From NCBI GenBank assembly GCA_001664505.1, contig CP011806.1:3110378-3174377 (forward strand): a stretch of 64,000 nucleotides of DNA, written 5' to 3'. Within the stretch, counting starts at the first letter, position 1, and each line of letters opens with the position of its first letter. The stretch is from Acidobacteria bacterium Mor1. GTDB lineage: Bacteria > Acidobacteriota > Polarisedimenticolia > Polarisedimenticolales > Polarisedimenticolaceae. The notes below the pieces were generated by a model. It was not told the DNA's origin, made no database searches, and saw only the letters and a list, made by a program, of their open reading frames with translations. This document shows, piece after piece, positions 11,887 to 54,088 of the stretch. The position numbers and the translations under genes were made by a program.

Positions 11887-12807
11887 TCAGGCCCCCAGCA
11901 GGGCGTCTCCATCCCGATCGCGACGCACGGCGAAGAACGCCGCGGTCAGACTGATCGCCAGGCTCACCCCGATCAGAAGCCCCGCAAAATGCCAGGGCAG
12001 CGGACGGCCCGCGACCATCTGGGCCAGTAGCGAGGAGGGATCGACGTAGGCCAGCAGCAGGCGCCGGCCGACCTCGGTCAGGATGACGGCAATCACCGCC
12101 CCGAGCAGCCCCTGGCACAATCCCGCGACCAGGAACGGCCCGCGCACGAAAGCCGGCGTCGCGCCGACCAGCAGCATGATCTCGATCTCGTCCCTGCGGG
12201 CGTAGACCGCCAGGCGCAGCACACTGGCCATCACGAACACCAGCGCCCCGAAGATCGGGAGCGCCAGGGCCAGCCCCCCGAGGCGCGCCAGACCGAGCCA
12301 GACCTCGAGTTGGTCCAGCCAACCCTGATCGAAGACCGCCTCATCCACGCCGGCGCGGCCGCTGGCAGACTCGACCACCTCCCGCGCCCGCTCGGCGGCA
12401 CCGGGACCCGGCTCCAACGCAACCTCGAAGGAGGCCGGGAACGGGTTGGATTCCAGCTCCCCGGGGACTCCTGCCAGTTCGCCGAACGAGGCCTGATAGC
12501 GCTCCAGCGCCTGCTCCCGGGTCACCAGCCGAACTTCCCGCACTCCGGGAAGCTGGGCCAGGGTTCGCTCGAGAGAAGCCCGCTCGCCGGCGTCTCCGGG
12601 CTCCAGCAGGTAGACGTCGACGTGCACCGCATCCCGCCGGTCGCCGATCCAGCCCTCGACGTTGGCCAGCACCAGCAGAACCAGGCCGGCGACGAACAGG
12701 GCGGCCGAGAGGGTCGTCAGCGCCAGGATATTGACCCCGGGACTGTGGCGGACCTCCTCCCAGGCATCGCTGAGGTAGTAGCGGAGCCTTGCGGTGCGTG
12801 CGCTCAT
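11887..12807 (-). CDS. ftsX: Cell-division ABC permease FtsX
   Basis: The 306-residue protein has the FtsX layout: a cytoplasmic N-terminus, first membrane helix (about 25-47), an extracytoplasmic domain (about 50-165) and three further helices (about 172-200, 222-245, 270-295). The FtsX sequence ARRDEIEIMLLVGAT, which follows the second helix, is present. With FtsE it forms the type VII ABC complex that activates septal wall hydrolases. It overlaps ftsE by four bases (ATGA), so the two are translationally coupled. Confidence 0.92.
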   Translation of the reverse strand: MSARTARLRYYLSDAWEEVRHSPGVNILALTTLSAALFVAGLVLLVLANVEGWIGDRRDAVHVDVYLLEPGDAGERASLERTLAQLPGVREVRLVTREQALERYQASFGELAGVPGELESNPFPASFEVALEPGPGAAERAREVVESASGRAGVDEAVFDQGWLDQLEVWLGLARLGGLALALPIFGALVFVMASVLRLAVYARRDEIEIMLLVGATPAFVRGPFLVAGLCQGLLGAVIAVILTEVGRRLLLAYVDPSSLLAQMVAGRPLPWHFAGLLIGVSLAISLTAAFFAVRRDRDGDALLGA

Positions 12808-13529
12808 GGGGCGGGATCCCCGGCCGGCGGTTCCCCCGCCGTCCCGGCAGGAGGCTGTCCTGCCGGCTTCTCGCCGGCGTTGACCACCTTGCCTCCGTCG
12901 AGCAACACGGTGCGCAGCTTCATCCGGTGGATCAGCTCCTTGTCGTGGGTCGCCACCACCACGGTGGTTCCCCGGGCGTTGATCTCGCGGAACAGACGCA
13001 TGATCTCGACGGCAAGCTCGCCGTCGAGGTTTCCGGTCGGCTCATCGGCCAGGAGCAGCTCCGGATCGGTAACGACTGCCCGGGCGATGGCGACGCGCTG
13101 TTGCTCTCCACCCGACAGCGTCGGCGGCAAGGCATTCAACCGGTGGTTGAGGCCGACCCCCTTGAGCGCCTCGTAGGCCCGCTGCTTCTGTTCGCTGCGG
13201 CTGAGCCCGGCGACATTCAGCACGTAGGCCACGTTCTCCAGGGCGGTCTTGCGGCGAATCAGCTTGAAGTCCTGGAACACCACCCCGATGGTGCTGCGCA
13301 GCTCGGGCACCTTGGATGCCGGCAGCGCGCCGACGTTGCGGCCGTTGACGATGATCTGCCCCGACGAGGGCAGCTCCTGGCGCAACATCAGGCGCAGCAG
13401 CGTGGTCTTGCCCGCGCCCGAGGGCCCGGTAACGAAGACGAACTCTCCGCGCTCGACCTCGAGGTTGGCCTCCGCCAGGGCGGTGGTTCCTCCGGGGTAG
13501 CGCTTGACCAGATTGAAGGCTCGAATCAT
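12804..13529 (-). CDS. ftsE: Cell-division ATP-binding protein FtsE
   Basis: A 241-residue ABC ATPase: Walker A GPSGAGKTT (residues 35-43), signature LSGGEQQRVAIARA, Walker B LLLADEPTGNLD and a switch His in VVATHDKELI. FtsE usually has about 220-230 residues; here a Pro/Gly/Ala-rich tail of about 20 residues follows the last strand and runs into the ftsX overlap, and its function is unknown. It powers FtsX to regulate peptidoglycan hydrolysis at the septum. Confidence 0.94.
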   Translation of the reverse strand: MIRAFNLVKRYPGGTTALAEANLEVERGEFVFVTGPSGAGKTTLLRLMLRQELPSSGQIIVNGRNVGALPASKVPELRSTIGVVFQDFKLIRRKTALENVAYVLNVAGLSRSEQKQRAYEALKGVGLNHRLNALPPTLSGGEQQRVAIARAVVTDPELLLADEPTGNLDGELAVEIMRLFREINARGTTVVVATHDKELIHRMKLRTVLLDGGKVVNAGEKPAGQPPAGTAGEPPAGDPAP

Positions 13530-50731: not shown

Positions 50732-52105
50732 CTAGAACGAAACGTCCCACTGGAAGCGGACACGGTCGTCGGACACATCCTGCCCGAGCACGGGGTCGTC
50801 GAGGGTCAGGTGCGAGTAGTCGAGGGTCAGCTTGTTGCGGTGGCCGGCGAAGAACCAGTTGGTGCCGAAGGTGAACTCTTCGCGCTTGTTCTCCTGGGCA
50901 CGGTCGATCACGTTGGGCTCTTCGACTTTGGCGTACCGGATGGCGAGCTCCAGCGGCTCGGGGAATCCTTCGAACGCCTCGTGGAAGAAGTAGCCGGCCT
51001 GGGCGTATCCACCGGTCAGCTCCGAGTGGGTGCCCGCGACCCGGTCCTCGATCCGCTTGCGGTGGTACTCCTGCTGGAAGGAGAAGCCGTTGGACTTGTA
51101 GGCGAGTTCCTGAACGACCTGATCGATGTCGAATTGACCGACCTCGGCACTCCCCGGACTCTCGAAACCGTCGAGGTTGCCGCAACCCGAAGAGGACCAA
51201 CGGGTGCAGCTGCCGCGGTTCTTGGCCGCGCCGATGGCGAAGCTACCGGCAGCCTTTTCGGTGCGCTCGACGTCGGTCTGCTTCCAGGCCAGATCCCGGC
51301 CGAGGAAGTTCCACTGGACACGGCCCATGGTCAGCAGGTTCTCGTCGTTGTTCCGGACGCCGCGGCCTTCGCCGGTGAAGACGCCGGCCCAGTAACGCAT
51401 GTCGGCAGCGGTGTCCTTGAACAGGTGCCCCTTGAGCTGCACGCCGACCTGGCGGTCGATGGTGAACACGCGGTTCGCGATCGAGCGTTCGACGAACTGC
51501 TGCTTTCCCGAGGAGTCGACACGCTCACGGTTCAGGTCGATCTTCCACTGACCGACGCGAATCGTCGCGGTGCGGAACTTCGCGACGTCGATGCGCCAGT
51601 CGATGACCCGGGCGCTGGATGACGCACTGCTGTCGTCGACATCGCGGCTGGGCTGCAGGTCGACCTCGAAGTAGTACTTGATCCACGGCTGGAATCCGTG
51701 GCCGCCGATCTTCATCCGCACCCGGCGTGCCTCGAAGGTCGACTCTTCCTGGCTCTGGAACGACGAAACCTGTCTCGGGTCGCCGCTGGTCGGGTTGGTG
51801 AAGCGAAGCTGAGCGCGCCACTGCAGGTTGGTCTGCCACTTGCCGTCCTGGGACTCCAGGCGGAACCCCTTGCTTCCGTAGCTGACCTTGACGGGAGAGT
51901 TCTTGGCCAGTTTCTTGGCGACCTCATCGGCGATACGATCGACGTCGACGTCGTCCCCGCCGGTACTCCCTTTGGAACCGGAGTCGTCGGCGACCACAGC
52001 CTCCTCTGCCGGGGCTTCATCGGCAACGGCAAACGGCACCATCAGGGCGACGGCGAGCAGCAGCCCCCCGCGACCCACACTAGACATGAAGCGACTGCAG
52101 GACAT
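50732..52105 (-). CDS. Phosphate-selective porin O/P family outer-membrane protein
   Basis: The 457-residue protein starts at the ATG at 52105, directly after GGAGGAAGG; an earlier frame extension lacks a ribosome site. Signal peptide GLLLAVALMVPFAVA, then an acidic stretch (EAPAEEAVVADD) and a short helical region (RIADEVAKKLA). The barrel has the OprO/OprP-type pattern: WRAQLRFTN, FEARRVRMKIGGHGFQPWIKYYFEVDLQP, VIDWRIDVAKF, VGQWKIDLNRERVDSSGKQQFVERSIANR, DRQVGVQLKGHLF, GVFTGEGRG, and it ends FQWDVSF with terminal Phe. Substrate phosphate is suggested by family and by a Pho-box-like element upstream. It is its own transcription unit. Confidence 0.82.
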   Translation of the reverse strand: MSCSRFMSSVGRGGLLLAVALMVPFAVADEAPAEEAVVADDSGSKGSTGGDDVDVDRIADEVAKKLAKNSPVKVSYGSKGFRLESQDGKWQTNLQWRAQLRFTNPTSGDPRQVSSFQSQEESTFEARRVRMKIGGHGFQPWIKYYFEVDLQPSRDVDDSSASSSARVIDWRIDVAKFRTATIRVGQWKIDLNRERVDSSGKQQFVERSIANRVFTIDRQVGVQLKGHLFKDTAADMRYWAGVFTGEGRGVRNNDENLLTMGRVQWNFLGRDLAWKQTDVERTEKAAGSFAIGAAKNRGSCTRWSSSGCGNLDGFESPGSAEVGQFDIDQVVQELAYKSNGFSFQQEYHRKRIEDRVAGTHSELTGGYAQAGYFFHEAFEGFPEPLELAIRYAKVEEPNVIDRAQENKREEFTFGTNWFFAGHRNKLTLDYSHLTLDDPVLGQDVSDDRVRFQWDVSF

Positions 52106-52441
52106 CCTTCCTCCTCGCGAACGTACTGTGTTCGTGATTCCCAGCACTGTGATCGCGCTTCCCGCATCGGCGGATTTTGCGATCACGTCGGGCGCGAGGA
52201 ACCTCCCCGGCACCCGTAGAGGCAGGACGATATCAGAGCGGCCGTCACACGACTGTTATCAAGCTGTAAGATTACTGACACCCTGTTTTCGCCTTTGAAC
52301 ACGCACCTTGGGGATGCGCCAGAATGCCTCAAATCAGGCTTTTTGAGGGCTTCTGCGGGGTTCTGGCGATTATCGGGACAGGGCGGTGGAGAGCAAAAAC
52401 GGGCGCAGTTCTTCGACGGATTACGTGGAGTTAACGCGGAG
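52106..52441. other. Non-coding stretch between porin and oxidoreductase genes
   Basis: These 336 bases separate the porin start (52105) and the oxidoreductase stop (52442), both on the minus strand. They hold the phased repeat at 52243-52280 and a possible -10 (TGATAT on the minus strand, 52235-52230). Outside these I see no gene or strong hairpin. Confidence 0.6.
52243..52280 (-). promoter_or_regulatory. Pho-box-like element: four half-sites with 11-bp phasing
   Basis: On the minus strand the half-sites TGTCA, TTACA, TAACA and TGACG occur at exactly 11-bp steps (plus-strand starts 52276, 52265, 52254, 52243). PhoB/PhoP-type regulators bind direct repeats of TGTCA or TTAACA with 11-bp period. 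The last half-site lies seven bases before a TGATAT -10-like hexamer, and the regulated gene is a phosphate-selective-porin homologue, so the context agrees. Confidence 0.65.
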
Positions 52442-54088
52442 CTAACTTGAGTGGGCCTCGATCTCCTGCAGGGCTGCCGCGCGGGCCTTGGAGATGTAGT
52501 CCCGACCCTTCATCGCGGACACGGTGACCATGCCTCCGAGCAAAGCGCCCCCCACACCACAGGTCACGATGTCCTGGCCGGTCAGGTACAGATTCTTGAT
52601 CGGCGTGCGGGGACGCAGGAAGCGCTGTTCGAAGCGGGCCGGATCGTGGGACAGGCCGTAGATCTCTCCCAGTTCGTAGCTGACGAAGTCCCGGGTCGAG
52701 AGCGGCGTCGACAGCTCGTAGTGATCGACCTTGCCCCGCAGCTGCGGCTCGTAGCGATAGAGCACCTCGAGCAGACGTTGGCTGATCTGCTCCTTGAACG
52801 CCTCGTAGTCGTCGCCCCGCTTCTTCCAGCGGCTGTCCTTCCAACGATCGAACCACTCGTAGGGCGCCAGGGTGATGATGTCGACGGTGGCGCGGCCAGG
52901 GTAGCGCTCCTCCCACTTCGGATCTTTGGCCGAGGGGAACGAGACGTAGACAACCGGAAAATCGGCGTTGACGTCGGCGACGAAGGCCTCGACGTTCTTG
53001 TCGTGGTCGTAGCTGCCGTCGGGGTAGATCCAGTAGTTGGTCTTGTTCAGGCCCAGATCGGCAGTGGACTCCTTGAATCCGAGATAGAGCCCCATGTGAG
53101 CCACCGAAGGCTGCACCGCGTCAAGCTGCTGCGGTAGGCCGAGCGAGCGGCCGGCCTCTTCGGGCACCAGCTTGCGATAGGTGTTGACCACCCCGGCGCT
53201 GCTGATGATGTTCGGCGCCCGCAGCTCCCGGCCATCGGCCATCCGCACACCCACTGCCGCGTTCCGCTCCAGGATCAACGACTCGACCGGAGCGTTGGTC
53301 AACACAAGCCCTCCGGCGGCGCCGATCGTCTCGGCGACGGTCTCGGCAATGCGCGACGAGCCTCCCACCGGGAACGCCCCGCCGTGGAGGTAGTGGTTGG
53401 ACACCAGGGCGTGCATGGCGAAGCTGCTGCGGCCCGGCGGAAGACCGTAGTCCCCATACTGAGCGGTCAGTACGCCGATCAGTTTCTCGTTGCGGGTCAG
53501 CTCTTCAAGCACCTCCCGGGTCGTTCGCCCGGCAAAGTCCAGGTACTTCTTGCGCATGCGCCCCCCGGCAACCCAGGAGACCGCCCGGGGCACCGCCTTC
53601 TCGGCGAAGAAGGTGCGGCTGGCCTCGTTGGCCTGTTTGACCAACTCGACGTAGCGATCGATCGCCTGCTGGTCTTCCGGTTCGGGAAAGCGCTCCTTGA
53701 GGCCCGCCTTGAAGTTCTCGGCCCCCTTGCGAAAGTCGAAGTGCTCGTCACCGAACCAGACCCGGTCGTAGATCTCTCCCATGTCCGCCCACTCGAGCTC
53801 CCCACGGCTCAGATAGTGGAACAGGGTGTAGAGCAGTGCTCTGGGGTGATTGACGCCACCGATGTAGTGGATTCCCACGTCCCATTCGTAGCCGCTGCGC
53901 TTGAACACGTGAGTGAAGCCGCCGGCGGTGTAGTGCTTCTCCAGTACCAGCACCCGCTCCCCGTCCCGGGCGAGAAGCGCCGCGCAGGTCAGCCCGCCCA
54001 TGCCCGATCCGATCACGATGGCGTCGAAGGACTCGTTCGGGTCGAGCTTGTGCTGTTTGTAGGAACGAATGCTGTCTGAACGGGCCAC
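52442..54088 (-). CDS. FAD-dependent oxidoreductase, phytoene-desaturase / RetSat family
   Basis: A 548-residue flavoprotein. The GTG at 54088 is chosen as start because GGAGGGAG lies just upstream and the dinucleotide-binding fold begins soon after: VIGSGMGG (G27-G32) and VLVLEKHYTAGG. The C-terminal FAD motif is NLYLTGQDIVTCGVGGALLGGM. Overall pattern (GYEWDVGIHYIGG, FPVGGSSRIAETVAETI) fits the CrtI / retinol-saturase group, which reduces or oxidises polyene double bonds. Substrate unknown; a CarF-like lipid desaturase gene lies nearby. It lies downstream of the DUF1579 gene, 35 bases away. Confidence 0.85.
   Translation of the reverse strand: MARSDSIRSYKQHKLDPNESFDAIVIGSGMGGLTCAALLARDGERVLVLEKHYTAGGFTHVFKRSGYEWDVGIHYIGGVNHPRALLYTLFHYLSRGELEWADMGEIYDRVWFGDEHFDFRKGAENFKAGLKERFPEPEDQQAIDRYVELVKQANEASRTFFAEKAVPRAVSWVAGGRMRKKYLDFAGRTTREVLEELTRNEKLIGVLTAQYGDYGLPPGRSSFAMHALVSNHYLHGGAFPVGGSSRIAETVAETIGAAGGLVLTNAPVESLILERNAAVGVRMADGRELRAPNIISSAGVVNTYRKLVPEEAGRSLGLPQQLDAVQPSVAHMGLYLGFKESTADLGLNKTNYWIYPDGSYDHDKNVEAFVADVNADFPVVYVSFPSAKDPKWEERYPGRATVDIITLAPYEWFDRWKDSRWKKRGDDYEAFKEQISQRLLEVLYRYEPQLRGKVDHYELSTPLSTRDFVSYELGEIYGLSHDPARFEQRFLRPRTPIKNLYLTGQDIVTCGVGGALLGGMVTVSAMKGRDYISKARAAALQEIEAHSS

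Follow-up and report, generated by a model that had tools for sequence, protein, structure and literature searches.

A 44-base array of four 11-base repeat units (positions 52242-52285) lies upstream of an OprO/OprP-like porin gene in the window, the whole 64,000-nucleotide stretch of DNA that was analysed, and looks like a genuine site for a phosphate-starvation regulator. The array is an ordinary kind of Pho-regulon switch with one unusual and testable feature, the direction of its repeats. It extends putative phosphate-limitation control to an OprP-like porin of a lineage remote from the model organisms, and it offers a natural promoter for testing the direction dependence of PhoB activation. 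A literature search combining Pho box, phosphate-selective porin and PhoB found nothing. Inverted Pho boxes were likewise not met with in the literature searched, including the accessible portions of PMC1906773, PMC10294691, PMC4415409 and PMC7866108, which is no proof of their absence in print.

The array is held in a gap of 336 bp, bounded on one side by the porin ATG at 52105 and on the other by the 3′ end, at 52442, of a gene for an FAD-dependent oxidoreductase on the same (minus) strand as the porin. The features of the locus are as follows.

52242-52252, plus strand: repeat unit 1, CCGTCACACGA, nearest to the porin; profile match, with an identical unit in the pstS promoter of a relative (L113).
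52253-52263, plus strand: repeat unit 2, CTGTTATCAAG; profile match, within the 23/33 identity to the pstB-promoter element.
52264-52274, plus strand: repeat unit 3, CTGTAAGATTA; profile match, within the same 23/33 identity.
52275-52285, plus strand: repeat unit 4, CTGACACCCTG; profile match.
52227-52232, minus strand: candidate -10 hexamer TATCGT (TANNNT), a consensus match only, separated by 9 bases from the porin-side edge of the array.
52110-52115, minus strand: Shine-Dalgarno-like AGGAGG, 4 bases before the porin ATG, read from the sequence.
50732-52105, minus strand: gene for a Porin_O_P (OprO/OprP-like) outer-membrane porin (Pfam PF07396, E 5.2e-19; best PDB matches OprP 2o4v and OprO 4rjw).

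The first-pass annotation had described four pentamers at 11-base intervals over 52243-52280 with no strand stated. They are present in minus-strand order, TGTCA, TTACA, TAACA and TGACG at exact 11-base steps from 52280 to 52243, the minus-strand letters from 52280 down being TGTCA-GTAATC-TTACA-GCTTGA-TAACA-GTCGTG-TGACG. Scans for sigma-70 promoters and for intrinsic terminators returned none. Nested inverted repeats, CGCCAGAA/TTCTGGCG around CCTCAAA/TTTTGAGG, were seen by eye at 52317-52368, between the oxidoreductase gene and the array; the terminator scan does not call them.

The array is well above chance expectation. Profile 1, an 11-base unit obtained by expectation-maximization, was trained solely on orthologous porin promoters of other bacteria: 25 orthologue loci were collected (21 of them informative), L061-L063 were excluded (two from Bacteroidota, one truncated), and the 22 upstream stretches used for training include one, L043, that reads N. 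The unit learned was CTGTMAYAAAA, with a likelihood gain of 232 versus 33 ± 5.6 in 20 shuffled sets. When all 127,914 four-unit positions of the window's two strands were scored, 52242 on the plus strand came out on top with 26.4 bits, the best unrelated position scoring 9.9 bits. In 2,000 dinucleotide shuffles of the 336-bp gap the largest score was 23.7, short of that of the array. Of the spacings from 7 to 15 tried in the gap, 11 alone scored high (24.3 for four 7-bp cores), all others giving 11.1 or less. Profile 2 was derived from 28 pstS promoters in relatives (30 pstS loci minus the genome's own, L090, and the truncated L119); its consensus is CCGTCACAnnn, and it also puts 52242 plus first, with two, three and four units. 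According to the part of PMC4415409 available to us, a Pho box consists of directly repeated 11-nt units, seven bases of which are well conserved; the four units at 52242-52285 conform to this description. On these sequence comparisons and those with orthologous and pstB promoters given below, the Pho-box reading of the array is well supported.

Whether the element recurs in orthologous promoters had been raised in the first-pass annotation. By leave-one-out, the array is found on the coding strand in 18 of the 21 readable orthologous porin promoters, and it is absent from two closer homologues, L010 (G004, same family, 49%) and L011 (G041, 44%). In the window's phylum, a Porin_O_P match occurs in 33 of 60 genomes, its own included; in 10 of the 32 other matching genomes, pstS or pstB is found no more than 3 kb away and in every case on the porin's strand. 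These pst-adjacent porins form distant branches (23-32% identity for those aligned).

The same genome carries a pst cluster (L082) in which pstA, pstC and pstS lie on one strand, followed by ppk and ppx; beyond ppx, a first PhoB-like regulator gene and pstB are divergently arranged, and the genes of a second PhoB-like regulator and of a PhoR/PnpS-like kinase come next. PstB, PstS, PstC and PstA score above their cut-offs. The two PhoB-like regulators reach 232.7 and 221.4 bits versus the NCBI PhoB cut-off of 296.2, and the kinase beside pst is also below its curated cut-off; among the control genomes that match the PhoB model, the matches are also below the cut-off in 9 of 11. Three observations concern the cluster itself. 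The two regulator genes (12712-13518 and 15369-16043 of L082) stand on either side of pstB; their wings read VRGVGYRF in the one facing away from pstB and VVGVGYRF in the one adjoining the kinase; and the frame between pstB and the second PhoB-like regulator resembles PhoU by eye.

A scan for the element at pst promoters, proposed in the first-pass annotation, did find it there. In the region that separates pstB from the first PhoB-like regulator gene, an element is identical to the porin array at 23 of 33 bases, against 19/33 for the next best site in the window. The two-unit pattern TGTHA-N6-TGTHA, a count that is descriptive because the pattern was picked after the sites were seen, has 10 matches genome-wide versus 5 for a reversed-pattern control; of the 10, one is at the porin, two that overlap are at pstB and one stands some 490 bp ahead of pstS, four in all. 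The one ahead of pstS, TGTTA-N6-TGTTA at 6317-6332 of L082, is on the pstS coding strand and is unusually distant from the gene. A broad regulon was sought with a three-unit pattern (up to 2 mismatches) and the candidate was set aside, with 7 matches versus 6 in the reversed control; the only two perfect matches are the two sites that built the pattern. The third three-unit match, at G000:C1:3323862-3323899 (L085/L154), was rejected as a Pho site, with no phosphate gene in view; it consists of four TAACA-like units at 11-base steps that overlap the start of a short plus-strand ORF. Exact TGWCA-N6-TGWCA occurs at six places, several of them inside ORFs; inspection of the neighbouring genes by eye gave no obvious connection with phosphate, and this pattern was also discarded. 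No PhoD phosphatase of the genome's own and no CGTCAC-type dimers genome-wide were found, and therefore a wider regulon is not demonstrated.

The porin gene matches Pfam PF07396 with 69.2 bits (gathering score 20.9), and a profile search of the PDB finds Porin P (E 2.3e-17) and Porin O. An AlphaFold model built with 29 sequences (pLDDT 80.6) has OprP 2o4v and OprO 4rjw/4rjx as its top three fold matches, with E 6.2e-15 and a TM score of 0.61 by query against 2o4v, which assigns it the OprP/OprO β-barrel fold. In a tree, the protein groups with gammaproteobacterial porins (support 89/82 with L039 and L040) and not with the Porin_O_P proteins of its own class; it is 58-65% identical over the alignment to porins of marine gammaproteobacteria. 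This placement apart from its own class suggests horizontal transfer of the gene.

The core TGWCA is close to palindromic, and so the direction of the array has to be read off the bases that flank it. At the array, profile 1 gives 26.4 bits on the plus strand versus 4.1 on the minus strand, and the three-unit class profile gives 21.0 versus 5.9; the units thus read on the plus strand, with the porin gene on the minus strand, which departs from the coding-strand placement that is the usual layout, although the latter is outside the written definition of a Pho box. With the class set, training on the reverse strand gives equal likelihood, since a model so trained picks up the motif in reverse, and therefore the orientation call rests on the strand that carries the coding-strand-learned profile. 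Since the plus strand is where both coding-strand profiles find the array, the half-sites appear, by profile, to face away from the porin, opposite to those of the orthologues. A standard tandem box on the coding (minus) strand was tried and rejected, its 4.1 bits being equalled in 60 of 500 shuffles. An inverted layout is not unique to the porin array, since pstS is also preceded by inverted boxes in L095 (22.0 versus 8.4) and L099 (18.6 versus 9.4), two relatives that belong to a single genus and in which the gene upstream of pstS runs in the same direction; weaker ones were found in L108 and L111. In L095 and L099, the inverted dimer lies about 120 bp before pstS, directly after the same-strand gene of a PhoB-like regulator.

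In E. coli, according to the sections of PMC1906773 that could be consulted, some 10 bp separate the Pho box from a downstream -10 of the form TAN3T/A. In this gap, TATCGT (52232-52227, minus strand) lies 9 bases past the array edge on the porin side, a spacing near that value to which only modest weight is given, the motif being short. Only 6 of the 18 orthologue promoters contain such a TANNN[T/A] hexamer, and its offset varies among them; these few and scattered matches therefore leave TATCGT a small weight. The hexamer that the first-pass annotation had placed seven bases beyond the array, TGATAT, is indeed there, but the overlapping TATCGT fits TANNNT better. No TANNN[T/A] was seen within 60 bases of the array on the non-porin side; the array is assigned to the porin because TATCGT stands on the porin side and the other side has no -10-like hexamer. 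The PhoB-type box geometry proposed upstream of an OprO/P-like porin agrees with the orthologous promoters, the pstB promoter, the PhoB/PhoR-type genes beside pst and the OprP/OprO fold; a standard E. coli-type order on the coding strand, two tandem sites and then a -10, does not hold, the units being oriented away from the porin. The earlier interpretation is thus partly supported: it was largely right, and the direction of the array is corrected.

We consider it probable that the array mediates PhoB-type activation of the putative phosphate porin under phosphate limitation. When phosphate is scarce, a PhoB-type response regulator would be phosphorylated and recruited to the Pho-box array of four 11-bp half-sites; once bound, it would turn on the adjacent porin gene from a promoter with TATCGT as candidate -10 and a putative start site. 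The regulator would be seated inverted relative to the E. coli arrangement, with the half-sites facing away from the porin. Counted against this activation model are the orientation, the sub-cut-off regulators, the lack of the array before the G004 and G041 homologues, a pst adjacency confined to distant Porin_O_P branches, the missing PhoD and CGTCAC-type dimers, the 13 full-length matches to the PhoB model in the genome, and the few, scattered TANNN[T/A] hexamers of the orthologue promoters.

The orientation bears directly on two alternatives. That the array is a PhoB-type site which represses the porin or is neutral, its half-sites facing away, draws on the plus-strand orientation under two independent profiles and on the description of PhoB, in the available part of PMC10294691, as a dual regulator by site position with many transcriptionally inert sites in E. 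coli. We hold this to be unlikely: the array is intergenic, lies directly before a phosphate-porin-type gene, has four good units and a -10-like hexamer near the expected distance, and the inverted boxes before pstS in L095 and L099 occur without a divergent gene. The same orientation, together with a short plus-strand ORF of 36 codons (52324-52434), would fit an array that drives a plus-strand transcript, this ORF or a small RNA, which would run towards the oxidoreductase gene and be antisense to its 3′ end. That reading is very unlikely given the lack of TANNN[T/A] on that side; moreover, no plus-strand gene is recognizable in the 336-bp gap, whose plus-strand frames are without coding bias, and the ORF itself, with GC of 0.53/0.58/0.56 at the three codon positions, lacks gene-like codon bias.

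The identity of the regulator and the origin of the repeats bear on two further readings. The PhoB model has 13 full-length matches in the genome, none over the cut-off, so that another regulator of the OmpR/PhoB family with an 11-bp repeat site, and not the phosphate one, might use the array; the closest match to the array found in the genome is the pstB/regulator intergenic region, and the orthologous arrays precede the same porin family, which makes such a regulator quite improbable. A chance AT-rich repeat could be argued from the three-unit pattern, hardly commoner genome-wide than its reversed control as counted above, and is extremely improbable in view of the first rank under two independently trained profiles and the shuffles of the gap. 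Activation by a PhoB-type regulator remains our preferred reading. As a tentative extension, one we consider rather less likely than not, PhoB-type regulators might activate phosphate-regulon promoters class-wide from either array orientation, as with the inverted arrays ahead of this porin and ahead of pstS in L095 and L099, the quasi-palindromic TGWCA allowing the flip, so that the fixed direction of E. coli would not be general.

Compared with the E. coli-type PhoB Pho box (CTGTCAT), the array is likewise built of 11-nt units, each with a conserved core of seven bases (here CTGTTAT, CTGTAAG, CTGACAC and CCGTCAC), arranged head-to-tail near a -10-like hexamer with no recognizable sigma-70 -35/-10 pair; it differs in that its units point away from the gene, the host genome is GC-rich and the regulator is putative. 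The Porin_O_P orthologues of Halieaceae, Arenicellaceae and other gammaproteobacteria (L039-L058), which are 61-72% identical to the window porin over the best segment, have the same CTGTMAYAAAA units before the same porin, but theirs lie on the coding strand and the window array on the opposite one. The pstS boxes of class relatives (L115, L116, L112 and L098 among them) share CYGTCACANNN units and, unlike the array, such class boxes are mostly on the coding strand, L095 and L099 being the inverted cases. The porin resembles the phosphate-selective OprO and OprP in Pfam family, best PDB fold matches and Porin P profile match, whereas identity in the fold alignment is 15-18% and phosphate selectivity is here putative.
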